NCBI RefSeq assembly: GCF_948472415.1
Contig: NZ_OX419519.1
Location: 1,674,001-1,738,000 of the forward strand
DNA length: 64,000 bases
From: Kitasatospora fiedleri
GTDB taxonomy: Bacteria; Actinomycetota; Actinomycetes; Streptomycetales; Streptomycetaceae
Reading direction: 5' to 3'
A model generated the notes under the pieces. The model ran no database searches. It was not told where the DNA came from and was given only the letters and a program-made list of their open reading frames with translations. Below are positions 48,699 to 59,414 of the stretch, one piece after another (position 1 is the first letter of the stretch; every line of letters starts with the position of its first letter). The position numbers and the translations under genes were made by a program.

Positions 48699-48786
48699 GT
48701 CCGGGTGGCGGAATGGCAGACGCGCTAGCTTGAGGTGCTAGTGCCCTTTATCGGGCGTGGGGGTTCAAGTCCCCCCTCGGACACCA
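48699..48786 (+). tRNA. tRNA-Leu (anticodon GAG)
   Basis: 88 nt including an encoded CCA. Acceptor stem GTCCGGG pairs with CTCGGAC (one G-T pair), anticodon arm GCTAGCTTGAGGTGCTAG gives GAG (reads CUC), a long variable arm as required for class II tRNA-Leu, and T arm GGGGGTTCAAGTCCCCC. The 3' end (from 48763) belongs to the attachment core of the integrated element, so the element preserves the tRNA. Confidence 0.95.
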
Positions 48787-48788
48787 GC
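48763..48788 (+). repeat. attL core: tRNA-Leu 3' end
   Basis: 26 bp GTTCAAGTCCCCCCTCGGAC plus ACCAGC, identical at 59301-59326. The core starts in the T arm of the tRNA and ends 2 bp after the encoded CCA, the usual target of tyrosine integrases. Confidence 0.9.
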
Positions 48789-48792
48789 ACAG

Positions 48793-48816
48793 ACCCCTGT
48801 TGATCAGGGGTTTTTT
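48793..48816 (+). terminator. Intrinsic terminator after tRNA-Leu
   Basis: Stem ACCCCTG (48793-48799), loop TTGAT, complement CAGGGGT (48805-48811), then TTTTT. A second version of it (with TCGAT loop and less T-rich tail) follows attR at 59331-59349, so the homology between the two element ends runs past the 26 bp core. Confidence 0.85.
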
Positions 48817-48834
48817 GCTTTTCCGGGCAGTGGC

Positions 48835-48855
48835 GTGACCAACCACGTGACCAAC
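48835..48855. promoter_or_regulatory. Integrase arm-type sites, left
   Basis: GTGACCAAC occurs at 48835-48843 and again at 48847-48855, starts 12 bp apart. A matching pair (GTGACCAAC, ATGACCAAC; 59161-59169 and 59172-59180) lies just inside the right end. Paired short repeats just inside both core sites are what tyrosine integrases use as arm sites. The recombination role is an inference. Confidence 0.6.
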
Positions 48856-48874
48856 GGCCCAGGAAGTCCCCTGG

Positions 48875-50119
48875 TCAGACCAGGGATGTGAGGCCAATTC
48901 GGCCGGCGCTTGATGCCGCCAGCTTCTTCGCTCCCTCGGCACGACGGCGGCCGTAGCGAGCCATCGTGTAGCCCGGCGAGTGGTGCCGGGCGTTGGCGGA
49001 GACCTCTACCGGATTCTCGTGGTTGTCGAGGTCGTTTGTGATCTTCGATGCCCGCAAGTCGTGCAACCGGAAGTCTTCCGGCAGGCGCATGCGGTTGCGG
49101 GCCGTCCGCCATCGGGCCGACACCTTCTCCGGGTCCTGGGGCCCTCCGGCCTCCTTGCCCTTGTGGAGTTTGAACCCGTCCCGGGCGAAGACCAGGCCGT
49201 GGTCCACCCAGGCCGCCCCGAGAAGAGCCCTCTCCTGCCGCTGGCGCTCCCGCTGCCACTTGAGGACGTTCATCAGGGCCTGGTCCACGTAGATGACGGC
49301 GTTGTCGTCGCCGTCCTTGGTGAGCTTCCGGAGCCGGTAGGTGTTGCCCTCCTCGACCACCACCCAGGCCAGTTCGATGGAGCCCTCATCCCAGTTGATG
49401 AGGTCCCACATCCAGCCCAGGACTTCGCTGCGGCGGCACGAGGTGGCCGCGTAGGCGGTCCACAGCGGGGCGTCCCGCAGGCAGTGATGAGTCAGCCCGT
49501 CGTCACAGGCCCGGTTCCCGCACGGCTTCCATATCTCGGCGAGGAACTGCGCCGTCTCCTGGTCGTTGAGGGTCGGGAAGTCCGGCTCTGCCGCCTTGAT
49601 CTGACGCTCTGTCGGAGGGTTGGCGGTGTGCGCCGGGTTGACCTTCAGCAGCCGCCTCGGACCGGTGATGGTCTCGAAGGCCGCAGAGATGGCGTTGTGG
49701 ATGTGGCGGACCGACTTCGGCCCAAGCGGCTTGCCCTTGTTGGTCGGGCACGGCTGGGTCTCCAGCATCCGGTAGAAGTCGTCCAGCCTCTCGTCCGTCA
49801 CCTCCACCACCTTCTCCTCTCCTATGTGGGGCTTGATGTGCAGCCTCACCTTCGGCTCGTAGCCCTTGGTAGTCGTCTTCTCTCCCCGGTGCTTGGACAG
49901 CCACCGGTCCATGAGCTGAGCCACGGTCATGTCCGAACGCGGGGTGAGGTCGCCTTCCTCGTGCTCGGTGTGCCACTTGCGAAGAGCCCTCTCCGCCTCG
50001 GTCTTGGTGCCGTACTCGCGGCCTATCCAGTGCCTCTCCTTCTTTCCGGTCGCCGGGTTGAGGTGTAGCGGGGTGCGCACTCCCCAGGTGTTGGGCCTCC
50101 CCTTGCGCGGGATCTCCAC
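48875..50119 (-). CDS. int: Tyrosine recombinase integrase
   Basis: 414 residues. N-terminal DNA-binding part (TWGVRTPLHLNPATGKKERH), a SAM-like core-binding domain (about 60-160: TVAQLMDRWLSKHRGEKTT), then the catalytic domain with Arg229 in TSCRRSEVLG, HDLR (His353, Arg356), His379/His380 in ARHHSPGYT and Tyr389 in MARYGRR. A Cys/His cluster (CGNRACDDGLTHHC) is inserted before the first Arg and may bind zinc; it is unusual but found in actinobacterial integrases. Lies next to attL. The first base after its stop region is 87 bp from the core. Confidence 0.95.
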   Translation of the reverse strand: MEIPRKGRPNTWGVRTPLHLNPATGKKERHWIGREYGTKTEAERALRKWHTEHEEGDLTPRSDMTVAQLMDRWLSKHRGEKTTTKGYEPKVRLHIKPHIGEEKVVEVTDERLDDFYRMLETQPCPTNKGKPLGPKSVRHIHNAISAAFETITGPRRLLKVNPAHTANPPTERQIKAAEPDFPTLNDQETAQFLAEIWKPCGNRACDDGLTHHCLRDAPLWTAYAATSCRRSEVLGWMWDLINWDEGSIELAWVVVEEGNTYRLRKLTKDGDDNAVIYVDQALMNVLKWQRERQRQERALLGAAWVDHGLVFARDGFKLHKGKEAGGPQDPEKVSARWRTARNRMRLPEDFRLHDLRASKITNDLDNHENPVEVSANARHHSPGYTMARYGRRRAEGAKKLAASSAGRIGLTSLV

Positions 50120-50159
50120 CGGAGTCCCCCGAGCCCGTTTCCGCGCTTCGCCACTTCTG

Positions 50160-50726
50160 CTACTGCTCCTCTTGTTCGTTCTGCCATTCGGCGAGCAACG
50201 TGCTTGCCTTGGCGGTGAGTTGTTTGCCGTCCCACAGGCCCAGTTCCCGGGCGCGCCTGACGCGCTCGGACATGGTGGCCTTGCCGATGCCCAGGCGGGC
50301 CGCCAACTCGCCCTGGGGGGCGGTGGTGCCGGTTGCCCTCATACGGACCAGTTCGGCCACCAGCAGTGCGTAGTCCTGGTCGGTGCGACAGCGCTCCGGG
50401 ACCGGCCAGGGTCGAGCAGTGTCATGCTCGGCCGCACGGGCCATCTCGGCACGGGCCTGGGCCTTGATCTCCGCGAAGGGGATCTGCCGCAGCAGGCTCG
50501 CCGGAATGCCGTCCGTTTCCAGCGCCTGGGCCATGGCCTGATCGATCTCCTCGTCACTGCCGCCGACGGCCAGCCGGATGGTCAGCTCAGACGGGCCGGT
50601 GAACGGGGCTCCCGAGGGGCATCGGGCCGCCACCCGCCAGGGCCCGTAGAAGCCGAGCCACACCAGGTCATCGCCCTGTCGCTGCCACTCGGGCTGTGGG
50701 TCAGGTTCGTTTGTTCGTGAAGTCAT
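50160..50726 (-). CDS. Element-encoded protein with C-terminal winged helix-turn-helix
   Basis: 188 residues from ATG 50726. The N-terminal two thirds (LVWLGFYGPWRVAARCPSG, ELTIRLAVGGSDEEIDQAM) match no family I know. The end is a HTH: TAPQGELAARLGIGKATMSERVRRARELGLW. It is followed at 40 bp by int, so it may control excision or integration, or be a general silencer of the element. Role otherwise unknown. Confidence 0.7.
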   Translation of the reverse strand: MTSRTNEPDPQPEWQRQGDDLVWLGFYGPWRVAARCPSGAPFTGPSELTIRLAVGGSDEEIDQAMAQALETDGIPASLLRQIPFAEIKAQARAEMARAAEHDTARPWPVPERCRTDQDYALLVAELVRMRATGTTAPQGELAARLGIGKATMSERVRRARELGLWDGKQLTAKASTLLAEWQNEQEEQ

Positions 50727-50890
50727 GGCACGACCATAGATCATCCCGAACATCCTGCGCCAGGTTCGGACAAGTGACACGCATCACCGATAATGAACTT
50801 GCTGCCACATGTTCGGAAGTGGTGTGGTGAGGACAGGCCGGAGAACGGCCACAGAAGACGCCCACCATCGGGACACAGCGAGGAGCGCAC

Positions 50891-51061
50891 TTGGGCAACA
50901 GCCTCATGACCGTGGACGAGGTAGCCAACTACCTCAACCGCCCCAAGAGTTGGGTCTACGCCAACTGGCGGGAGGCGGGCATCCCGTTCCGCAGGGTCGG
51001 GCAGGCACTCCGGTGCCGGCCGAAGGACCTCGAAGCCTGGGTGGACCGGCAGGCCGCGTAG
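50891..51061 (+). CDS. xis: Excisionase-like HTH_17 (MerR-type) small protein
   Basis: 56 residues. TTG 50891 is chosen for AGGAG five bases upstream; ATG 50906 is the inner option. MTVDEVANYLNRPKSWVYAN, then REAGIPFRRVGQALRCRPKDLEAWVDRQAA, is the standard excisionase/DNA-binding fold with tyrosine-tryptophan recognition helix and winged segment. Divergent from the HTH/integrase pair, as expected for a switch region. Confidence 0.8.
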   Translation: MGNSLMTVDEVANYLNRPKSWVYANWREAGIPFRRVGQALRCRPKDLEAWVDRQAA

Positions 51062-51402
51062 CGGCAACCCAGCCTGGGCCACTCCCTCTTCCATGAACTC
51101 TGAAGCCGCCCCTTTGAAGGGCGGACACAGAACCACTACCTGAACATGTCTCGGCCGCTCTCGGGGGCGGCCAGAACAGTAGTCATGTGGGGGGTATATA
51201 GAACCCCCACATAAAAGATGTATGTGTCAATCCACGGGCAGATGGATGCCTTCGCCGAAAGAGTGGGACACCTCACATCTAGCTGAACTGGTGTCCATTC
51301 GGAGCCCTCCTGACACATACATCCTAAGTGAGAGTTAGTTAGCCCCAATCAGCCCCGGCCCACCATCCCCCGGGGCCCGTCCACTTCTACTGGAGGTTCA
51401 CC
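51062..51402. promoter_or_regulatory. Control region before the capsid module, with hairpin and 13 bp inverted repeat
   Basis: 341 bp, the most A+T-rich part of the left half of the element, with no gene. Features: hairpin ATGTGGGGG (51185-51193) / CCCCCACAT (51204-51212) with TATATA in its loop; inverted repeat GATGTATGTGTCA at 51217-51229 and its complement at 51311-51323. Likely holds the late promoter and operators. Confidence 0.6.
51217..51323. repeat. 13 bp inverted repeat pair (GATGTATGTGTCA)
   Basis: Plus-strand copy at 51217-51229; complement at 51311-51323. A third copy of the 12 bp ATGTATGTGTCA lies in direct orientation at 53139-53150, beyond the capsid genes. Three exact 12-mers in 2 kb of lower-G+C sequence are not expected by chance. 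Confidence 0.75.
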
Positions 51403-51765
51403 CTGACCGAGAACCAGACCGAAACCGCGGAGCAGGCACCCGCCGAGGCACCGCAGGCCCCCGACTCTTCCCAGGCCATCTGGGAGGAGGTTCACCGCGA
51501 GTTCGCCGTTCGGCTGGCCCAGGCCGAGATCAAGCTCCAGGCGGCCCAGGAGGGCGTGAAAATTCCTGATGGCCTGATGGATCTCATTGACCCGTCAAAG
51601 CTCCTCGGAGAGGGCGGCCAGCCCCTTCAGGAGGCCATTGACGTTCTCCTGTCCGCAGCTCGCGCCAACAGCGAACCGGAGTTCGCCCAACTCGCGGGTG
51701 CCGGTTACCACCGGGGCGGAGCCCCGTCCTTCCCTTCCGTTTCACTCGACGCCCGCAAGCGCTGA
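51403..51765 (+). CDS. Putative scaffold-like protein, probable CTG start
   Basis: 120 residues if started at CTG 51403: GGAGG lies at perfect distance (six bases, 51392-51396) and the frame is open, whereas the first in-frame ATG (51577) would remove half the protein. Sequence: acidic Glu/Gln/Pro/Ala leader (TENQTETAEQAPAEAPQAP), a long amphipathic helix (IWEEVHREFAVRLAQAEIKL, QAAQEG) and a shorter polar tail. Size, acidity, helix and place just before the capsid gene resemble phage scaffolding proteins, but no family match can be claimed. Confidence 0.6.
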   Translation: MTENQTETAEQAPAEAPQAPDSSQAIWEEVHREFAVRLAQAEIKLQAAQEGVKIPDGLMDLIDPSKLLGEGGQPLQEAIDVLLSAARANSEPEFAQLAGAGYHRGGAPSFPSVSLDARKR

Positions 51766-51779
51766 AAGGAATTTCTGAC

Positions 51780-52094
51780 ATGACCGATACCACGAACAGC
51801 ACCGAGGCGATGCGCGCAGAAGCTTCCCGCGCGTATGCAATCAGGCTGGCCATCATTGAGATCCGGACTGCGGCCAAGCTGCTCGGTGCTCACGTTCCGG
51901 ACAGCTACCTCCAGTACCTCGATTATTCGAAGATTTGCAACGCCGACGGAACGGTCCGAGCCGATGCGGTGGCCGAGATCATTGAGCCTTTCGCCCCGCC
52001 CAAGGAGCCGGTATTCGCCCAGGATCTCGGCCTGGGCCGCCAAGGCGGATTCACCCACTACCAGATGAAGCCCTATGACGTTCGCAACCGATAA
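51780..52094 (+). CDS. Small capsid-module protein, unknown
   Basis: 104 residues, ATG 51780 with GAAAGGA upstream. One likely long helix (AYAIRLAIIEIRTAAKLLG) followed by a short conserved-looking ending (GGFTHYQMKPYDVRN). No recognised family. Lies 14 bp after the scaffold-like gene and 15 bp before the coat gene, in one operon, so it probably belongs to the particle or its assembly (decoration, head completion or size control). Confidence 0.6.
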   Translation: MTDTTNSTEAMRAEASRAYAIRLAIIEIRTAAKLLGAHVPDSYLQYLDYSKICNADGTVRADAVAEIIEPFAPPKEPVFAQDLGLGRQGGFTHYQMKPYDVRNR

Positions 52095-52109
52095 CCAGAA
52101 AGAGGCCAT

Positions 52110-53015
52110 ATGACCTACACGTACCAGAGCCCCGGCACTACAACCTTCATTCCCGAAATCTGGGATGCCGCACTTATCGAACAGTTCGACCCTCTGCTCG
52201 TATGGGCATCGGATATCGTCGCTAACCGGAAGTATGAAGGGGCCATCAAGAAGCAGGGTGACACTGTCCACATCAACAGCCTTTCGACTCCGACCGTGGG
52301 TGACTACAAGCTGCCGGATGGCATGACGGCCCAGCGGCCGGAGACGGTCGAGCAGAAGCTCGAAATCACCGAGGCAAAGTATCTACAGCTGCTGGTGGAA
52401 GACATTGAGCGCATCCAGGTAGCTGGGGCCATGGACACCCCGATCAACCGGCAGATGGTGCGCGCCCTGGCCCGGGAGGCCGATGCTTTCATGGGCCGCG
52501 TCATCGCCTCCACAGCCACCCCCATGCCCAACGTTAAGGCCACCACCGGAAGCGCCCCTCAGGCGCTCTACAGCGCCGTCCTGGACATGATGCTGGCCTT
52601 GGACGACCACGACATCCCTGACGGCCGCTACGTGGTCGTCTCGCCCCGCGTGAAGCGATTCCTGGTCGAGCATCCGGCGATTGCGAACGCCGGGGCCTAC
52701 GGTGAGGCCGGGGTGACCGCGAACGGCGTCGTGGCGCGCCTGGCGGGATTCACGGTCCTGTCCACCACGGCCATGCCCCAGGGCGCTGATATTGTGGCCG
52801 GACACTCCGAATTTGCCACGTTCGCTTCCCAGTTCAATGGCTTCCGGCAGGGCCTCAGCGAGAAGTACCGGGCGAATTTCATTGACACACTTCATTTGTT
52901 CGGTGGCCGCATCGTTCGGTATCCCGGCCTGGACACCCCGAAGCCTGACCGCACATACGATGAACTTCTTCCGACTAAGGGAATCGTCAAGGCCGCCGTC
53001 GAGTGGCCTGCCTGA
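52110..53015 (+). CDS. P22-coat-like phage major capsid protein (HK97 fold)
   Basis: 301 residues. TFIPEIWDAALIEQFDPLLV, GDTVHINSLSTPTVGDYKL and ITEAKYLQLLVEDIERIQVAG, then MVRALAREADAFMGRVI are the conserved blocks of the coat family of actinophages (N-arm, E-loop region, spine helix), with LAGFTVLSTTAMPQGADIVAGHSEFATFASQFN near the end as the A-domain. No protease or delta-domain is fused. An encapsulin is less likely because its cargo loop and size differ. Strong terminator follows. It is the only structural protein I can identify in the element. Confidence 0.88.
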   Translation: MTYTYQSPGTTTFIPEIWDAALIEQFDPLLVWASDIVANRKYEGAIKKQGDTVHINSLSTPTVGDYKLPDGMTAQRPETVEQKLEITEAKYLQLLVEDIERIQVAGAMDTPINRQMVRALAREADAFMGRVIASTATPMPNVKATTGSAPQALYSAVLDMMLALDDHDIPDGRYVVVSPRVKRFLVEHPAIANAGAYGEAGVTANGVVARLAGFTVLSTTAMPQGADIVAGHSEFATFASQFNGFRQGLSEKYRANFIDTLHLFGGRIVRYPGLDTPKPDRTYDELLPTKGIVKAAVEWPA

Positions 53016-53026
53016 CAGTAGGAATT

Positions 53027-53060
53027 GATAAGGGCCCCGCCATCCGGCGGGGCCCTTATC
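53027..53060 (+). terminator. Strong terminator after the capsid gene
   Basis: 15 bp perfect stem (GATAAGGGCCCCGCC, 53027-53041; complement 53046-53060), loop ATCC, followed by TTTATTT. Starts 11 bp after the stop codon. Confidence 0.9.
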
Positions 53061-53138
53061 TTTATTTGCGGCCCGGCAACTTGGCTCGGGCAACTCCAGA
53101 TCGGCCGGCCAGCAGGAACAGGCATGCCCGCGGGCGCT

Positions 53139-53150
53139 ATGTATGTGTCA
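53139..53150 (+). repeat. Third ATGTATGTGTCA copy
   Basis: Exact 12-mer in direct orientation to the 51218-51229 copy; the two enclose the capsid operon and its terminator. Confidence 0.75.
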
Positions 53151-53206
53151 GATCCTCAACTATCGGCCGCCAGAGAGTGAAACTGAGACCGACACCACAC
53201 ATTTGA

Positions 53207-53596
53207 TGGAAAGTTCGATGACTCTCAGCCTTAAATCTGCCCCACATTTTCATTGAATTCGACTCTGGTGCACCCCATTGCCACGAGTGGCATCCCCGAA
53301 GAACTCAAGGACGGGGGCGCTTGTGAACTTGTGAAAATTTGAAACCCGTACACGGTGCGAGGAAGGCACCCCCGGTGGGTCCACATTCCTTCCAATCAAG
53401 CATTACCCCCATATGCTTTATCATGTAGTTATCTAGAAGAAATGCAGTCGTGATGGCAATCTGAGGTCTGCGTGGCGTTTCGGGTGGGATGATCGAGTTG
53501 TTCGCCGGTCGGGCCGGTGGGCGCGAATCGCAGCCGTAAGTGCAAGGCTCCGGCTGAATCACTGGAACTCTCTCCACAAAGGAATGAAGAAACCCC
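53207..53596. promoter_or_regulatory. 390 bp A+T-rich non-coding region
   Basis: No convincing gene. Local base composition is A+T rich for this genome (for example TTGTGAAAATTTG at 53329, CCATATGCTTTATCATGTAG near 53410), with a short TGCCAC/GTGGCA hairpin near 53280. Such a region between the capsid and replication modules may contain the replication origin or the promoter of the BRCT-Lsr2 gene. Confidence 0.45.
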
Positions 53597-54340
53597 ATGC
53601 GCACGACTGTCCTGGTACCTGTTGAGCGTGTCTTCTGCGATGCCCACATAGCTCGGGACGGCAGCGAAGTAGCAGCAGTGGAGTCCCTGACTCTCGCCGG
53701 TCACGCATGGGACCTGTGCCCGGAACACTGCGCTGTCTTCAGCCGCTACCTGCTGGATGCGCTGGGCGTACCGGCCGAGCCCGGCACCGTTGCCGTGGAG
53801 CCGGAGGCCGCTGACACCGTCGTAGTGCAGGACGACCAGGACGACACCGAAGAGGACATGACCGAGGCTGAGCCGGAGGTTCGTCCAACCGTGCTGGTGT
53901 CCGGGGAGATCCCGGGGTACGAGTGGGACGACGCCAGGGAAGCAGTCCGCAACCTGGGCTATGAGGTGGTGGGGCGTGCCGACTCCAGCACCGTACTGAT
54001 CATCTGCGGTGAGGGCGCGGAGCGGGCAACCAAGAAGCTGCAAGACGCAGTTGAGTTCGGCATCCCGTGCTTCGACGCGACCCGTCCAGGTGCGTTCCGT
54101 GACGCTGTGTGCGCTGGAGAGTTCAAGGGCGGTGACCCGCTCCCCCAGCCGGTTCGCAAGGACGCTCAGGCCGTGATGAGCGACCGTGAGCGCAACCGCA
54201 TGATCCGCGCCTGGGCGCACGCCAACGGGTACAACCTGCCCGCCAAGGGGCGCATCCCGATCAACATCACCCAGGCATGGCGGGCGGCCAACACCACGCG
54301 GAGCACGTCCACCGCCCCGGAATCCCTCTCAGCAGCCTGA
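53597..54340 (+). CDS. BRCT domain plus Lsr2-type DNA-binding domain protein
   Basis: 247 residues in three parts. Residues 10-50 carry CDAH (14-17) and CPEH (41-44), a likely zinc site. An acidic linker (70-95) leads to a BRCT-like domain (97-170: TVLVSGEIPGYEWDDAREAV, NLGYEVVGRADSSTVLIICG, then FGIPCFD). The C-terminal 200-232 is the DNA-binding domain of Lsr2 (RNRMIRAWAHANGYNLPAKG then RIPINITQAW), with the AT-hook-like KGRIP turn. Lsr2 silences A+T-rich foreign DNA; BRCT modules read DNA ends or phosphopeptides. It may silence the element or host phage genes, or protect DNA ends. Confidence 0.8.
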   Translation: MRTTVLVPVERVFCDAHIARDGSEVAAVESLTLAGHAWDLCPEHCAVFSRYLLDALGVPAEPGTVAVEPEAADTVVVQDDQDDTEEDMTEAEPEVRPTVLVSGEIPGYEWDDAREAVRNLGYEVVGRADSSTVLIICGEGAERATKKLQDAVEFGIPCFDATRPGAFRDAVCAGEFKGGDPLPQPVRKDAQAVMSDRERNRMIRAWAHANGYNLPAKGRIPINITQAWRAANTTRSTSTAPESLSAA

Positions 54341-54421
54341 CCCTGTTCTGACCGTACGTCACCCACGGCGGCCGGAAGGGCTCCGGCCGCCCCTTGCAAG
54401 CAACCAACTGGAGAGAGCGGC

Positions 54422-55774
54422 ATGAGCACCATCACCCTGTACGGCCCCATCGGACGGGCCGTCGAGAAGGTTAGCCCGTACGTGGAGTGCGATCCGATCG
54501 GTATCTACGTGGCGGCGCTCAGCATGTGGTCCGCCGCCATCGGGCAGCGGGTCAAGGTATCCAGCCGGAGCAACTCCCGTCCCGCGCTGGTGTGGTCGGC
54601 CTTGGTGGGCGGTACCGGCAAGGGCAAGGGCACCGCGCTGCGGGCCGCTCAGCACATCGTGCGCCCGGCCATCGGCCGGTTCCTCGAAGTGAACACCACC
54701 TCCGGCATCACCTCCGGCGCTTCCCTGGTCAACTACCTGGCTGAGCAGGCAGAGGCCACGGAGGAGACGGAGGCCGGACGGGACGTGCGGGCCCTGGTCG
54801 TCGAAGAGGAGTGGTCCGAGGTGCTGCGCCGGGTGAGGCGTGACCCGTCATTCACGGCCAAGCTGCGGAGTGCCTGGGACGGTGCGGCGATAAGGAACAC
54901 CACGAAAGAAGGTGCTCAGGCCGTGGAGGACCCGGCCGTGGTGCTGCACACCCACATCACCCCTTCCGACTGGACCAAGTACGTCGGTGACACCGAGGCG
55001 GCCGGAGGGTCCTACAACCGCATCATGCCCTTCACCCTGCGCTCGGTCCCGATGCTGGACGACGAGTCGTCCACTCTGCCGGAGGTGAACGGCTGGGACC
55101 TTGCCGACGCCTACGCCTGGGCCGCCGCCCGCAACCGCGTGATCAGCCTCGGAGAGGACGCCCGACAGCTCTGGAAGACCATCCGCCGCTACGCCCGCAT
55201 CATCTCCGAGACCTTGCCCGAGAGCCAGGCCGTCTACGTCGAGCGCACCGCCGAACAAACCATCCGGGTGGCGGCCTGCCTCGCCGCTTCCGAGCAGTCC
55301 GAGACCATCACCCACGCCCGACTGTCCGCCGCGTTCTCCCTCGTGCGCCACAGCGTCCGCTGCGCGGTCGGCATCACCGGCGGCGCTGAGGCCACCAAGC
55401 CCACCCGCCGGATACCTACCCTGGCGGAGAAGGTCCGGGCCCGCATCGAGATGCACGGCGGCCGGGCACGGTCCTCCGAACTGCTGCCGTTCGTCGGTGC
55501 CACCGCCGAAGAGGTCAAGGCACTGCCCGGGGTGAAGGTCACCCTTGACCGCTCCGGCCTGGGCCGCCCGGCCACCGTCTACACCCTCTCCGACGACCAG
55601 CCCGGTCACGCTCCGCTCGGCCGGCCGCGAACCCAGCGTGACGAACCCGCGGCCACGGTCGTCCGTATCGACACCTACCGCCCGGCCACACCTGCCAACC
55701 CGACGCCCGCCCACGCGCCCTCACTCCGCCCACAACCGACCACGGCGGTAAACCCGTTCCTGTCCCTGCTCTAA
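54422..55774 (+). CDS. DUF3987-like P-loop replication protein
   Basis: 450 residues. Walker A GGTGKGKGT (63-71) and an acidic strand end LVVEEEW (125-131) that can act as Walker B; later RIMPFTLRSVPML and DLADAYAWAAARNRVISL fit the DUF3987/primase-helicase family on plasmids and satellites. The last 90 residues are a winged-helix piece (VRARIEMHGGRARSSELLPF) and a Pro-rich tail. As the only P-loop gene besides nothing else in the element, it is the best candidate for autonomous replication. Terminator follows. Confidence 0.72.
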   Translation: MSTITLYGPIGRAVEKVSPYVECDPIGIYVAALSMWSAAIGQRVKVSSRSNSRPALVWSALVGGTGKGKGTALRAAQHIVRPAIGRFLEVNTTSGITSGASLVNYLAEQAEATEETEAGRDVRALVVEEEWSEVLRRVRRDPSFTAKLRSAWDGAAIRNTTKEGAQAVEDPAVVLHTHITPSDWTKYVGDTEAAGGSYNRIMPFTLRSVPMLDDESSTLPEVNGWDLADAYAWAAARNRVISLGEDARQLWKTIRRYARIISETLPESQAVYVERTAEQTIRVAACLAASEQSETITHARLSAAFSLVRHSVRCAVGITGGAEATKPTRRIPTLAEKVRARIEMHGGRARSSELLPFVGATAEEVKALPGVKVTLDRSGLGRPATVYTLSDDQPGHAPLGRPRTQRDEPAATVVRIDTYRPATPANPTPAHAPSLRPQPTTAVNPFLSLL

Positions 55775-55784
55775 CGCTCGAAGC

Positions 55785-55819
55785 AAAGAAGCCCCGGCCA
55801 ACAAGGCCGGGGCTTCTTT
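55785..55819. terminator. Bidirectional terminator between DUF3987 gene and DUF397 gene
   Basis: 15 bp perfect stem (AAAGAAGCCCCGGCC, 55785-55799; complement 55805-55819), loop AACAA, CATTT after. Two converging genes end on either side. Confidence 0.9.
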
Positions 55820-55833
55820 CATTTGGTGCTGCT

Positions 55834-56043
55834 TCAGACCTCGCCGAACTCGCCAGCGGTAGCGGCAGTGACGAAGGCCGCCCAGGCTGCGGCCGGGAAC
55901 ACCAGAACCGGCCCCTGCGGGTCCTTGGAGTCCCGGACATGGCCCGGGTGAAGGTCGTCCACCTCGACGCAACCCCCCTGACCATTCGAGTATGACGATT
56001 TGCGCCAGGCAGTAGCAGTGTCAGGGAGGTCATGCTGCGGCAT
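55834..56043 (-). CDS. DUF397 small protein
   Basis: 69 residues from ATG 56043. WRKSSYSNGQGGCVEVDDLHPGHV, then VRDSKDPQGPVLVFP and WAAFVTA, is the DUF397 pattern. Overlaps the DUF5753 regulator gene by 14 bp. In streptomycetes these two form partner pairs (as in WhiJ/BldB-type systems) in which the small protein modulates the DNA-binding partner, sometimes toxin-antitoxin-like. Confidence 0.88.
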   Translation of the reverse strand: MPQHDLPDTATAWRKSSYSNGQGGCVEVDDLHPGHVRDSKDPQGPVLVFPAAAWAAFVTAATAGEFGEV

Positions 56044-56866
56044 CGCGTTCCGTTTCCTTCCGTACATCACGGATCAAGGCCAGGGTTTCCTGTTGCCCAA
56101 GGGCGTTGACCTGGAGTCGATCGTATCGGCTGAGCCATGTAGACACGGTGTCGGCATCCTGCTCCAAGTATCCACGCTGCAACGTCTCCGTGTATCCGAC
56201 CATCGCCCGGTTCGGAAGAGTCAGGATCGTCACCGGGTGGGACAGAGGTCGGTCTTCTGCGAGGTGTCGAGGCGCGATTTGGAGGACCACGTTCGGCCGG
56301 GCACTCAGCGCTTCGAGGTGGCGGAGCTGTTGAACCATGACTGCCGTCCCGCCGATCGGACGTCGCAGGGCCGCTTCGTCCAGCACCACGTGTATGGGCG
56401 TGCCAGCGTCCAACTTGAGCTGACGCCGAGCCAGTAGGGCAAGTCGCTCATCAGCCTGTGCGCGTGTTGACTCGCCCCGCCGAACTGCGGCGTCCTCGTA
56501 CGCGGCGCTGTACCCCGGTTCTTGCAACATGCCAGGCACAAGATCACTTTCGAAGATCCGCATGCCAATCGCGCGCTGCTCAAGCGGCAGGTACTCCGGG
56601 AAGCCGGGCAACAGCGAGCCCCTGCGCCAGCTCCAGTAGAGGAGCAGGAGCGTGCCGTCAGTTTCAAGGGCGGCATCGACCAGCTCTACGAATTTTAAAC
56701 TCGGGGACTGTTTGGCTCCTTCCACATTCGAGATGTAGACGTTGCTGTACTGGATCGCTCGGGCAAGCTCTACTTGGGTCAAGCCCCGCACCTCCCTTGA
56801 CCTGGTGAGTTGCACGGCTAGGGCATGCAGCGGAGATAACGTTGGATCAACTGTTCGGCGCACCAA
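56030..56866 (-). CDS. XRE-family HTH regulator with DUF5753 domain
   Basis: 278 residues from TTG 56866 (AGGAG seven bases upstream; GTG 56863 is also possible). N-terminal Cro/cI HTH (QLTRSREVRGLTQVELARAI, IQYSNVYISNVEGAKQSPSL) then the DUF5753 ligand-like domain (YLPLEQRAIGMRIFESDLVP, GMLQEPGYSA, and ALRRPIGGTAVMVQQLRHL). Partner of the DUF397 gene. The divergent promoter contains a near-perfect palindrome. Likely controls the right-hand genes of the element. Confidence 0.88.
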   Translation of the reverse strand: MVRRTVDPTLSPLHALAVQLTRSREVRGLTQVELARAIQYSNVYISNVEGAKQSPSLKFVELVDAALETDGTLLLLYWSWRRGSLLPGFPEYLPLEQRAIGMRIFESDLVPGMLQEPGYSAAYEDAAVRRGESTRAQADERLALLARRQLKLDAGTPIHVVLDEAALRRPIGGTAVMVQQLRHLEALSARPNVVLQIAPRHLAEDRPLSHPVTILTLPNRAMVGYTETLQRGYLEQDADTVSTWLSRYDRLQVNALGQQETLALIRDVRKETERDAAA

Positions 56867-56876
56867 GAGTGTTCTC

Positions 56877-56910
56877 CTTTTAAAGTCCAGACAACTAGAG
56901 ACTTCAAAAG
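56877..56910. promoter_or_regulatory. Candidate operator of the DUF5753 regulator
   Basis: CTTTTAAAGTC (56877-56887) and GACTTCAAAAG (56900-56910) pair in 10 of 11 positions across a 12 bp spacer. The left arm overlaps the ribosome site of the regulator, so binding would block its own expression and that of the divergent gene at 56996. Confidence 0.55.
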
Positions 56911-56995
56911 CTACCGGCTCTGCGGCGGAACGTCGATGCTTGAGGCACAGAGAGCGACGAAGCGGAGCATCAGCGAGCGAGACGGGTACGCCACC

Positions 56996-57481
56996 ATGAC
57001 CATGACCAACTCCCTGCTTGACCAGTTGGACCATCAGAGACGGGCCCTTGCTCAGAGGGCGTACGAGGGCGTGCAGGAGGCCCTTCGCTCGGCCGGCATC
57101 CGGCTTCCGTCGCTGGCGGTGGAGAAGACGGTCACCGGTGAGTACCTGGTGCAGCTCGGCGGCGTCGTTCCGGACGTGGCCGGCAGACTCGCATCGGTCG
57201 CCTGGACCGGGGCCCCGTACCTGCGGGCCGCGGAGGGCGAGGAGTTCGCCGAGCCGGTCATGCAGTTCTGGACCCCCGAACAGGGCGAGCTGCTGGTGGA
57301 GGTGGGAACGGAGCGCCTGGGCGAGTTCTCCCGAATGAATGAATCGGGGGAACTGGTACTCATCCCGGCCGACGGGGGCGAGCCGTGGAGCGTCGGGCGA
57401 ACCTCGGTGCGTCACCCCCGAGTCGATGACCTGGTGCGGGCGGGGTTCATCCGGCCCAGGGCCAGCAGACTGACGGGGTGA
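56996..57481 (+). CDS. Element-encoded protein of unknown function
   Basis: 161 residues from ATG 56996. Helical N-terminus (LDQLDHQRRALAQRAYEGVQ), then beta-rich segments (VEKTVTGEYLVQLGGVVPDV, YLRAAEGEEFAEPVMQFWTP) and a polar end. No domain recognised. It faces the DUF5753 gene over the palindrome and runs directly into the next small gene, seven bases later; part of an early operon. Confidence 0.6.
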   Translation: MTMTNSLLDQLDHQRRALAQRAYEGVQEALRSAGIRLPSLAVEKTVTGEYLVQLGGVVPDVAGRLASVAWTGAPYLRAAEGEEFAEPVMQFWTPEQGELLVEVGTERLGEFSRMNESGELVLIPADGGEPWSVGRTSVRHPRVDDLVRAGFIRPRASRLTG

Positions 57482-57487
57482 TCGCCC

Positions 57488-57814
57488 GTGGCAATCGATC
57501 TGGCTTCGGTGCTGGCGGTCGGCCGACCGCCAGTGGTGCCGAAGTGCCTGAGGTGGTCAGCGGGCTGGTGCTGGCGGTGTCGACTGGTACGGGACGTAGC
57601 GCCCGCCGGAGCGGTCACCACGGAGTCCGGCGGTGAGCTGGCGCTGTTCCTCTGCCGCTGGCACTGGGCCGAGATGGAACAGGATATGACGGCTGTAGTT
57701 GAGCACCATCGCCATGAGAGGCGCATCGAGACGTCTCGACTCGCCGATTGGTCAGCTTCTGCGGCGCGTGCGCGCTCCACTCAATCCTCCGAAGCCGATT
57801 TCTTGACCACCTGA
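57488..57814 (+). CDS. Small Cys/Trp-containing protein of unknown function
   Basis: 108 residues from GTG 57488. A possible zinc knuckle, PKCLRWSAGWCWRCRLVRD followed by LFLCRWHW, is the only motif; the rest is polar. Neighbours suggest an early function. Not recognised. Confidence 0.5.
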   Translation: MAIDLASVLAVGRPPVVPKCLRWSAGWCWRCRLVRDVAPAGAVTTESGGELALFLCRWHWAEMEQDMTAVVEHHRHERRIETSRLADWSASAARARSTQSSEADFLTT

Positions 57815-57836
57815 GTTTCCGCGAGGAGCAACATCG

Positions 57837-58052
57837 ATGGGCAGGCCCCCATTTCCCGAGCCCTCAAACAAAGAGCGCGAGCAGTGGATTAAGCGCTACC
57901 AATCCGGGGAATCGATGAATTCCATATCCATATCCACTGGCCGCTCTTACAGGTGGATTCGAATGTGGTTCAAGACATGGGGCGTCCCCTTGCGAGGAAA
58001 GGCAGAGGCGAACTCCTTGAGGTGGAAGCGGCAGCACAACCGCACCTCATGA
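57837..58052 (+). CDS. Small HTH protein (first of two paralogues)
   Basis: 71 residues. EQWIKRYQSGESMNSISIST then GRSYRWIRMWFKTWGVPLRG is a helix-turn-helix of the resolvase/sigma-region type, alone in the chain. The next gene is a diverged copy. Such mini HTH proteins in satellites can act as repressors or replication control factors. Confidence 0.65.
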   Translation: MGRPPFPEPSNKEREQWIKRYQSGESMNSISISTGRSYRWIRMWFKTWGVPLRGKAEANSLRWKRQHNRTS

Positions 58053-58086
58053 TCTGATTCCATTGGATAAAACTCATCGAGGAACC

Positions 58087-58341
58087 ATGGCTTTGGCAAC
58101 CGCAGAAACCAAGACTCGCGTCCCCCAGCCTCGTCGGCCCGATCCCACGCCCGAGCAGCGCGCGGAGTGGACTGAGCGCTACAACGGCGGGGAGACGATG
58201 CAGAGCGTGGCGAGTTCGATCGGCTGCTCGGAGAACTGGCTGAAAGCCTGGTTCAGGCGTTGGGGCGTTCACGTCCGGGGCCGGGAGGAAGCGCAGCGGC
58301 TGAGCTGGTCCCAGCGACACCCGGAAGCTTCTTCTCTCTGA
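58087..58341 (+). CDS. Small HTH protein (second paralogue)
   Basis: 84 residues from ATG 58087. Basic N-terminus, then AEWTERYNGGETMQSVASSI and GCSENWLKAWFRRWGVHVRG. Aligns with the gene at 57837 over the whole HTH (ERY.GGE.M.S.a...G.s..W.k.WF..WGV..RG). Tandem duplication with divergence suggests two DNA sites or a heterodimer. Confidence 0.65.
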   Translation: MALATAETKTRVPQPRRPDPTPEQRAEWTERYNGGETMQSVASSIGCSENWLKAWFRRWGVHVRGREEAQRLSWSQRHPEASSL

Positions 58342-58348
58342 TTCGACT

Positions 58349-58673
58349 TCCGCCAGTCCCACCTGGCGGAGGGGTGCGCATGCGGATGCGTACCCGGCCG
58401 TCCTGGTGCCTTCCCCTTGGCAGACCAGGACGGCCGCCATTACTCCCGTTCCGGCCCCGTGTGCAACGCGCCTTCGCGCGGTTCGTCCTGGCTGGACCGG
58501 TAACAAGCTCCGCCCATCATCCTTGTGTGGGCGGGGGGTCGAACCTCTGAGGTCGCATGGGGATGAGGAACAGGGTTCGACACCACGTCCGCCCCGGAGC
58601 TGCTGGAACCTCCGGGGCGGACACCAAATCTCCCGTCCCGGCTGCTGATCTGCCAAGACCCGGCCGGGACGGG
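58349..58673. repeat. Array of five distinct hairpins in a 370 bp gap
   Basis: Perfect stems: TCCGCCAG (58349-58356 with 58363-58370), GGCCGTCCTGGT (58396-58407 with 58424-58435), CCGCCCA (58510-58516 with 58528-58534), GTCCGCCCCGGAG (58587-58599 with 58610-58622) and CCCGTCCCGGC (58632-58642 with 58663-58673). Different sequences, so not a duplicated terminator. Could be terminators of tiny genes, a structured RNA, or an origin/packaging signal. Confidence 0.65.
58380..58550 (+). CDS. Possible 56-residue basic peptide, weak
   Basis: ATG 58380 has GGAGGGG at good distance, but the frame is Arg/Pro rich (MRMRTRPSWCLPLGRPGR) and overlaps two of the hairpins, so it may be only a chance frame. 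Listed for completeness. Confidence 0.2.
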   Translation: MRMRTRPSWCLPLGRPGRPPLLPFRPRVQRAFARFVLAGPVTSSAHHPCVGGGSNL

Positions 58674-58711
58674 GCACCATCGCACCACTCCGCCAACAGA
58701 AAGGATGGATC

Positions 58712-58906
58712 ATGGCAGTTGCTGCGTTGGACGCGCCCGCGAACACCAGCTCCGCACGTACGCTGGACAAGAACCACCGCCGAGCCACTGCGGACGGCAC
58801 CACCCCGTGTAGCCCGTGCGGCGGGACCGGGTGGACCACCGACAGCGACGGCATGCGCTGGCAGTGCACGTCATGCGGCGGGCAAGGGCGCATCGAGCAC
58901 AACTAG
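58712..58906 (+). CDS. DnaJ-type zinc-ribbon small protein (first)
   Basis: 64 residues, ATG 58712 preceded by AAAGGATGG. Two CxxCGGxG motifs (PCSPCGGTGWTT and CTSCGGQGRIEHN) that in DnaJ bind zinc; here only one ribbon is present after a polar N-terminus. No J-domain. Confidence 0.65.
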   Translation: MAVAALDAPANTSSARTLDKNHRRATADGTTPCSPCGGTGWTTDSDGMRWQCTSCGGQGRIEHN

Positions 58907-58925
58907 GGGCAAGAAAGGATCAGTA

Positions 58926-59093
58926 ATGTACTGCGGGAAATGCAAGGGATTTGGCTATATCGAGGAAGTTCTCGACAACCCCCTCAGCCCCGAAGAACAG
59001 CGATTGCAGCCCAAAAGGGAGCAGCCTCAGGTTCTCCAGTGGGTCTGTGAAGACTGTGACGCAACCGGGCAGGCACCCGCACGACGTAGCTGA
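58926..59093 (+). CDS. DnaJ-type zinc-ribbon small protein (second)
   Basis: 55 residues from ATG 58926 (AGAAAGGATCAG upstream). CGKCKGFGYIEE, then WVCEDCDATGQAPA, gives CxxC pairs 37 residues apart. Its neighbour at 58712 has the same architecture, so the two are likely to share one function, perhaps a partner for a host chaperone or regulator. Confidence 0.65.
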   Translation: MYCGKCKGFGYIEEVLDNPLSPEEQRLQPKREQPQVLQWVCEDCDATGQAPARRS

Positions 59094-59414
59094 TCCTTGC
59101 CGTCCCGGGCCCCGTCCGCACGAGCAGTAGCGGGCGGGGCTCTGTCGTGCGTCGGGTCACGTGACCAACCCATGACCAACAGCGGTCCGAAGCACTCGGA
59201 AACGCCCAGGTCGGGCCAGGAAGCCAAGTGGTCGGGTAGGCGGGTCCTTAGAGGCGTTTTCGCAGGTCAGAACTAACAAAGGCTGGTGCCCGAGGCGAGA
59301 GTTCAAGTCCCCCCTCGGACACCAGCGAAGACCCCTGTCGATCAGGGGTCTTCTTGCTTTTCCGGGTGGTGACGGCGGGGCCGGCCACTTACCGACCGGT
59401 GGCCGGCCCCGCCG
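59094..59414. other. Right end of the element and junction
   Basis: Contains the right arm sites (59161-59180), the attR core (59301-59326) and a copy of the tRNA terminator. No gene. Confidence 0.7.
59301..59326 (+). repeat. attR core
   Basis: 26 bp identical to the tRNA-Leu 3' end at 48763-48788, followed by ACCCCTGTCGATCAGGGGT, the copy of the terminator hairpin with a few differences. The tRNA itself is not duplicated. Confidence 0.9.

Follow-up and report, generated by a model that had tools for sequence, protein, structure and literature searches.

A probable phage satellite in Kitasatospora fiedleri with genes for a shell only and a helper-type cos site

How could a chromosomal island that carries a phage coat gene, and no recognisable portal, terminase or tail gene, travel in a virion? 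The question is raised by an island at 48763-59326 of the window, by which we mean the whole 64,000-nucleotide stretch analysed (positions 1,674,001 to 1,738,000 of contig NZ_OX419519.1) from the 8.07 Mb genome of Kitasatospora fiedleri. We consider it probable that the island is an integrative cos-type (cohesive-end) phage satellite that would build its own shell and take the large terminase subunit (TerL), portal and tail from a helper phage, together with the helper's small terminase subunit (TerS) unless the element has a TerS of its own.

The island lies inside a tRNA-Leu(GAG) gene (48699..48786, plus strand, called by ARAGORN). The 3′ end of this gene forms the left core of the attachment (att) site, attL (26 nt, 48763..48788, plus strand), and an exact copy, attR, stands at 59301..59326 on the same strand, which puts the element at 10,538 bp. 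The GC content of the 10.5-kb block is below that of its flanks. Another conspecific genome (G011) has an empty site, with the two flanks contiguous around a single copy of the core. The boundaries given in the first-pass annotation of this DNA are exact. The same gene block and both att sites recur in other species, which speaks against a product of chance.

That annotation had called the element capsid-only and its capsid gene P22-coat-like. The likeness to P22 is well founded: the 301-aa major coat protein (52110..53015, plus strand), of P22/HK97 type, matches phrog_267 (1.6e-40) and Phage_capsid_4 (1.4e-7, above cutoff), and an 18-sequence profile aligns residues 11-271 to the major capsid protein gp6 of PDB entry 8e16 (E 1e-28). 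The predicted product is a full-length head protein. The word "only" does not stand, as the two small upstream genes are scaffold paralogs, and "shell-only" is the better description. P22-type coats assemble with scaffold. Scaffold paralog B (51780..52094, plus strand) matches phrog_4708 weakly (E 0.0055) and is 34% identical (E 3.5e-6) to the annotated scaffold of Success, a complete 57-kb Streptomyces phage isolated on S. lividans that we propose below as the helper type. Scaffold paralog A (51403..51765, plus strand) had no phage scaffold match of its own, either in PHROGs or to the Success scaffold; it is assigned to the family because its full-length homolog (62% identity) in a sister element, L066, matches the Success scaffold (1.4e-8, compared with 3.7e-17 for the B-type copy of L066). 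Its apparent start is an inferred CTG behind GGAGG, and the L066 homolog has a TTG behind AGGAGG in the matching place.

Other virion genes were looked for in two ways. Pfam and PHROGs profile scans of 16 open reading frames (ORFs) in the window recognised no portal, terminase, connector, tail or lysis gene. In addition, 17 structural and lysis proteins of Success, from TerS to endolysin, were used as queries (E 1e-3) against 24 sequences: the window taken twice (as a 16-kb cut and as the full 64 kb), L066 and 21 other loci. The Success scaffold matched 22 of the 24 and its major capsid protein (MCP) all 24; the other 15 queries matched none, and the portal, TerL, TerS, connectors, tail proteins and endolysin of Success thus have no relative in the 64-kb window at this threshold. 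The absence of a recognisable terminase, portal, tail or lysis gene, noted earlier from the letters, therefore survives the protein search against phage databases that the first-pass annotation had proposed. What the window holds is a mobile element that lacks the complete set of virion genes.

How such an element might be packaged is suggested by a conserved non-coding block behind the coat gene. In relatives it reads AAACCCGTACAC-(6)-AGG-(3)-GCACCCCCGGTGGGTCC-...-ATTACCCCC, and in the window it occupies 53342-53410. A blastn search of 50,697 phage records with window positions 53330-53430 found weak matches in 8 of them, one of which (E 3) falls on positions 1-37 of the Success record, the terminus of a linear genome. 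When the two ends of that record are joined, they read ...AAACCCGTACACGATGGAAGGAAGG/CGCCCCCTGCGGTCC...ATTACCCCC, and left arm, cut site and right box all agree with those of the window. The left arm, ACCCGTACAC (53344..53353, plus strand), is presumed to be the TerS-binding part and is of the helper type, being identical letter for letter in Success and in all 13 elements without TerS. The cut site, cosN, is CACCCCCGGTG (53367..53377, plus strand), a hyphenated dyad and presumed 11-nt overhang; the overhang is proposed because the sequence record of Success stops at the left border of the corresponding dyad. The right box, ATTACCCCC (53402..53410, plus strand), is conserved. By its letters, the block at 53344-53410 is a cos site of the kind found in Success-like phages, and element and phage thus have a packaging signal in common, a general mark of phage satellites. 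The earlier suggestion of helper packaging gains independent support from this site, which the first-pass annotation had missed. A further motif in the left flank, CTTGTGA-N-CTTGTGAA, is common to the window and Success and is not found in L066.

The cos pattern leads to a definite group of phages. Searched in IMG/VR, ACCCGTACACNNNNNNAGGNNNGCRCCCC (a pattern that itself includes the left arm) occurs in 12 contigs of 43.8-60.0 kb each, and all 12 encode a Success-like TerL with 62-88% identity, matched piecewise in G072, G073, G077, G078 and G079 and with in-frame stops in G072, G079 and G081. Across 394 Streptomycetaceae genomes the same pattern occurs six times and its reversed control not at all. 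Four occurrences lie in elements (G000, G240, G245 and G382, the window among them). One is in G086, which has a TerL of 80% identity about 30 kb from the cos, with two in-frame TAG codons, and one is in G053. The dyad at the cut site is kept as well: 34 of 35 rows match, 20 of which are anchored on the cut-site letters themselves, and among the 15 rows free to differ (the 12 contigs, Success and the satellites L014 and L015) the dyad partner is retained in 14, seven as CAC/GTG and seven as CGC/GCG. Both satellites are among the CGC/GCG dyads; L025 breaks the dyad.

Several side observations belong to this phage group. The TerL matches break recurrently near residues 72-82 and 171-183 in G043, G056, G072, G073, G077, G078 and G079, which could reflect frameshifts, inserts or something programmed. 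In phage L067 (G080), TerL and tape measure are 88% and 79% identical to those of Success and the MCP is 25% identical, as if the head module had been exchanged beside a kept terminase. Homologs of the element's DUF3987 protein (30-46%) occur in six cos-matched phage loci (L028, L029, L031, L032, L033 and L035), and a homolog of its Lsr2/BRCT protein in one of them, L028; replication genes are thus common to the satellite and the helper group. The occurrence in G053 (contig C52; L065 3566-4684) has next to it the C-terminal part of an integrase (74%) and a degenerate att core, and looks like a remnant of another element; the integrase fragment could not be placed.

The sister elements tie the cos more closely to terminase. 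Several have a gene of about 113 aa behind the coat that Pfam assigns to Terminase_7, the small terminase subunit (above cutoff in three members, slightly below in two more), and the product aligns pairwise to the annotated Success TerS, which adjoins TerL (29%, E 1e-5). TerS-less elements have the phage arm ACCCGTACAC (13/13), and TerS-bearing ones have GATTGGCRAAC in its place (8/8; the arm of L009 has one mismatch) while keeping the cut site and the right box. TerS status and left arm are therefore in step in 21 of 21 elements. This count leaves out L019 (as L011), the duplicates L080, L083 and L084 (of L003, L005 and L013), L004 (which ends before the cos and has a TerS frame of 64 aa) and two elements found through the cos arm (G180 and G376); L008 and L010 are both counted despite identical coats. 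The rule also held in advance: it predicted TerS in G372, G405 and G245:C28 and none in G240, G245:C11 and G382, and was right in all six, three of which were contigs already seen and three new tests. On the coat and DUF3987 trees TerS status changes six times, with four and three of the changes, respectively, on well-supported branches, and the arm changes each time; on the scaffold tree (17 rows) TerS changes four times. In IMG/VR the TerS-type arm pattern was found in two contigs, each a satellite belonging to this family, and in no phage; it also occurs in 4 of 388 Streptomycetaceae genomes (G245, G372, G180 and G376), with none for the pattern read backwards. The PHROGs label of "minor tail protein" (phrog_226) for the sister-element gene was rejected, given the Pfam assignment and the alignment to Success TerS. 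The label is probably wrong for the family as such, as members at L024 5368-5793 and L009 11018-11356 are TerS-like.

The element belongs to a family with members in other streptomycetes. A coat scan of the genome collection, limited in its reach to close relatives, found 16 loci with 69-76% coat identity, all in Streptomyces, and IMG/VR added two short contigs. At E 1e-3 these 18 loci have the coat in 18, DUF3987 in 17, Lsr2/BRCT in 17, the scaffold in 17 and xis in 15, with the window-type integrase in nine and the helix-turn-helix (HTH) gene hth in six; those genes that a locus has stand in one constant order. (L004 ends before DUF3987 and Lsr2/BRCT, and the scaffold of L014 was found only through that of Success.) In a sample of Streptomycetaceae, the coat at E 1e-60 occurs in 7 of 394 genomes (8 loci). 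Among 70 Kitasatospora genomes the element is in G000 and G027, and the capsid in G048 is 32% identical, its gene containing two in-frame TGA codons. All seven elements with both att sites in tRNA-Leu(GAG) measure 10,500-11,235 bp (the window, L006, L009, L011, L014, L017 and L066), although in four of them attR departs from the core at one or two positions; two elements inserted elsewhere are 11,129 and 11,301 bp long, as bounded by repeats of 22 and 29 nt. Sizes were not taken from L005, L007 and L012, where terminal repeats are 14-18 nt, or from L008, L010 and L013, where there are none. The same gene order at other tRNA-Leu loci, which the first-pass annotation had proposed to look for, was found in sister elements of this size class (10.50-11.24 kb). 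Between the window and L066, dN/dS (the ratio of nonsynonymous to synonymous rates) is 0.11 for xis, 0.13 for the coat, 0.20 for hth, 0.23 for DUF3987, 0.27 for scaffold A, 0.29 for Lsr2/BRCT, 0.30 for int and 0.43 for scaffold B, values that indicate that the family is under purifying selection. A separate oddity in S. griseocarneus is that L012 (15174-20857) carries a DUF6879/XRE-type regulator pair twice, the second outside the likely end of the element.

Two relatives have no coat at all. Among the four genomes with the TerS-type arm, G245 and G372 hold TerS-bearing elements that were already known. In G180 and G376 the cos is surrounded by xis, TerS (70-77% identical to TerS proteins already known), Lsr2/BRCT and DUF3987, with neither the scaffold nor the coat of the family. 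In place of these two genes is one for a 236-aa protein (L122 7477-8187; L123 8019-8726) that is 91% identical between the two, was assigned no family by profile search and has no match in the phage records. Its sequence is charged and helix-like, and it is perhaps a capsid-remodelling protein. In G180 an HNH endonuclease gene follows TerS, and a 28-nt repeat puts the length of the G376 element at 13,139 bp. These coatless sisters presumably use, and perhaps remodel, the helper coat, and they support the reading as a satellite. Given that they have the same backbone, the shell module appears to be exchangeable.

The course of events that we propose begins when a Success-like phage enters the host and the element excises. 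The excised element would replicate with its own DUF3987 protein, and its coat and scaffold would build a shell that is likely smaller than the helper's: the element coat has 301 residues and is 24% identical to the Success MCP, which has 346, and head-protein open frames are 347-390 in 10 of the 11 matched phage records (505 in G073). The helper portal would be recruited into this shell, helper TerS and TerL would recognise and cut the element cos and fill the shell with element DNA, and helper tails would complete the particle. Sisters with their own TerS and a different left arm would still use helper TerL, because the cut site is kept. The first-pass annotation had proposed a satellite with its own coat and a helper's portal and tail. 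The satellite part is supported by the missing portal, terminase and tail genes, the sister elements and the cos; that the coat alone makes the shell is what we infer.

A number of observations weigh against this proposal. The element is known here from its sequence, and excision, induction, particles and packaging are all predictions from it. The host genome has no second exact match to ACCCGTACACNNNNNNAGGNNNGCRCCCC (the exact pattern also misses the sites of G027 and L012), and each of its two TerLs shares 35-39% identity with the Success protein, so the helper is presumed to come from outside. Helper coats align to the element coat only piecewise, with 21-31% identity in 11 of 13 records, and cos-matched G072 and G080 gave no coat match; the fit of the element coat to a helper portal is therefore assumed. 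The predicted structure of the coat is poor (mean pLDDT, the predicted local distance difference test score, of 49, from 18 sequences), and the coatless sisters on the same backbone imply that an element of this kind can live without a coat gene. As for the terminase argument, PHROGs files the TerS family as "minor tail protein" (phrog_226), and the scaffold tree forces only one TerS change. A tree-aware pair test on the four and three supported independent switches gives p 0.125 and 0.25, and it cannot reach significance because the independent switches are too few. Since TerS and cos are neighbours, it is likely that they are exchanged as one cassette.

Other explanations have to accommodate the same evidence. 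The element coat could act as Ccm does in SaPIbov5, where it takes pentamer places in the helper shell (PMC8569155): it would co-assemble with helper coat, for example as pentamers, into small mixed shells and block the helper. The divergence is equal, with Ccm 24% identical to the phi12 coat protein (PMC8569155) and the element coat 24% identical to the Success MCP, and so is the arrangement of a coat homolog with a phage cos and no portal or TerL. Ccm alone could not form capsids (PMC5052747). The coatless G180 and G376, presumably on helper coat, fit this explanation too. The coat-bearing elements differ from SaPIbov5 in having scaffold beside the coat (18 of 18 relatives), and coats of the P22 type assemble with scaffold, both of which speak for a shell of the element's own while remaining compatible with mixing. 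We regard such remodelling as unlikely, though it is the one serious rival. It is very unlikely that the shell serves another use, such as interference with phages or a compartment, in an element that moves otherwise or no longer moves. Coat proteins can indeed interfere, and Ccm blocks phi12 (PMC5052747), but a conserved packaging signal, and a TerS gene in some members of the family, would be pointless without packaging.

An autonomous tiny virus with an unrecognised portal and motor could hide among the several small ORFs without a family, including a 161-aa protein without a convincing family match. However, no ORF of at least 400 aa exists beyond the assigned genes or those antiparallel to them, and the cos signal is tied to one particular terminase clade, so that this idea has very little probability left. 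Deletion of a prophage down to the present island, finally, would explain why coat and scaffold are homologous to phage proteins and stand in phage order, yet we find it barely credible: the same gene block and size occur elsewhere, the att sites are intact, dN/dS is low and the same species has an empty site. The profile-guided IMG/VR scan found coats at 73-75% and at 26-30% with none between, the nearest coat in a phage record is 31% identical, and over all searches (two of which reach close relatives only) coat relatives of 69-85% all lie within such elements, and no other coat exceeds 32% identity. The earlier argument that this is not simple prophage decay is upheld, the nearest relatives being elements of the same make and size, not full prophages, with low dN/dS.

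How does the proposed shell-only satellite compare with known systems? By gene make-up it is likened to SaPIbov4/5 with Ccm (SaPIs are Staphylococcus aureus pathogenicity islands), which are also integrative, with a phage cos, a distant homolog of the helper coat and no portal or TerL. Unlike them, it has separate scaffold genes, and its TerS-bearing and TerS-less sisters have one common cut site; Ccm, moreover, acts inside a mixed shell. Phage-inducible chromosomal islands (PICIs) are defined in PMC6092414 by a specific attachment site, exclusive PICI genes, the organisation of the replication origin and phage-dependent induction and packaging; of these the specific attachment site, tRNA-Leu(GAG), is present. 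The gene set of capsid-forming PICIs (cf-PICIs) comprises, according to PMC10690885, coat, protease, portal, connectors, TerS, TerL and HNH. The element resembles them in its own coat and the expected use of helper tails, and differs in that the window has coat and scaffold only, and its sisters in part TerS and HNH, and not the full set of head genes. MulchRoom and MiniFlayer have, by the account in PMC10690885, TerS, TerL, portal, coat, scaffold and adapter and no recognised primase. These satellites of Streptomyces phages agree with the element in host group and in having their own coat and scaffold. They are set apart, as far as the published descriptions go, by the element's lack of TerS, TerL, portal and adapter (Pfam, PHROGs and the Success protein queries found only coat and scaffold of that gene set in the window) and by its DUF3987 protein. 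Success and its kin share with the element a cos site, homologous scaffold and coat and a tyrosine recombinase; Success itself is a complete phage and the proposed helper type, not a satellite. In the open-access literature (subscription papers being beyond reach) we found neither a satellite with coat and scaffold only nor this element family. Cos-type SaPIs with Ccm, whole-head cf-PICIs and MulchRoom/MiniFlayer were thus known already, and what appears new is the shell-only gene set.

As such, the element would fill a gap between satellites that remodel the helper coat (SaPI, P4 and PLE, the PICI-like elements) and those that make whole heads (cf-PICI). Only the shell would be private, and helper portal, motor and tail would have to fit a coat that shares about 24% identity with that of the helper. 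Beyond the single element, we lean somewhat toward a broader picture, a streptomycete satellite family of exchangeable virion modules on one backbone, in which shell and packaging cassette vary and helper TerL cuts one site. The shell module would be either scaffold and coat, in which case the particle would be a chimaera with the helper's portal, motor and tail, or the 236-aa protein; the packaging cassette would be either the helper arm with helper TerS or a private arm with own TerS. The family thereby offers a natural experiment on what TerS reads, with two cos arms, one cut site and 21 of 21 elements in step. A plausible helper group can be named and an isolated phage, Success, exists, so the idea is testable at once. 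The comparison of non-coding DNA with phage genome ends can, it seems, reveal a helper where coat similarity cannot.

The remaining genes are those of an integrative element, and the integrase, xis-like gene, regulators and replication-type P-loop protein read from the letters alone were borne out by phrog_1, HTH_17, DUF5753 and DUF3987 profile matches. On the minus strand, the tyrosine integrase (48875..50119, GTG start; phrog_1 2e-37, with the Pfam match PF00589 below its cutoff) is 63-83% identical to those of sister elements at the same tRNA, and an HTH protein (50160..50780, start codon uncertain), probably a regulator, matches the Phage_CI_repr HTH (4e-4, below cutoff) and phrog_11473 (1e-4) and is 84% identical to its L066 homolog. 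The excisionase-like (xis) HTH_17 protein follows on the plus strand (50891..51061; PF12728 1.2e-11; 94% in L066). Beyond the cos, also on the plus strand, are a BRCT-like protein with an Lsr2 DNA-binding domain (53597..54340; Lsr2_DNA-bd 6e-10, BRCT 4e-4, just below cutoff) and the DUF3987 P-loop replication protein (54422..55774; PF13148 1.7e-14; phrog_3022, DNA primase, 7e-12; 86% in L066). A DUF397 protein (55834..56061; PF04149 1.6e-24) and an XRE-DUF5753 regulator (56030..56839; DUF5753 4e-38, HTH_31 5e-11) are on the minus strand. The rest are on the plus strand: the 161-aa protein without an assigned family (56996..57481; no Pfam match up to E 1, and a PHROG match at chance level, E 0.48), two small HTH proteins (57837..58052, HTH_58 1.4e-7; 58090..58341, phrog_664 DNA binding 2.9e-6, Pfam matches below cutoff) and two small, tentatively zinc-ribbon-like proteins (58712..58906 and 58926..59093), both with DnaJ_CXXCXGXG matches below cutoff and the second with phrog_6060 at E 0.001. 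PADLOC gave only HTH and methyltransferase-fragment matches, none of them a defence system.

The spacer between xis and scaffold (51062-51402) is 340 bp in the window, and many relatives, L066 included, have an ORF of about 200 aa there, of several families. The motif TGTATGTGTCA occurs at 51219-51229, 51311-51321 and 53140-53150, as two facing copies before the scaffold genes and one behind the coat, and may be an operator. As a family-wide operator the three-copy motif was dropped, being absent from L066; single copies with one mismatch stand before the scaffold in L006, L008, L009 and L010.

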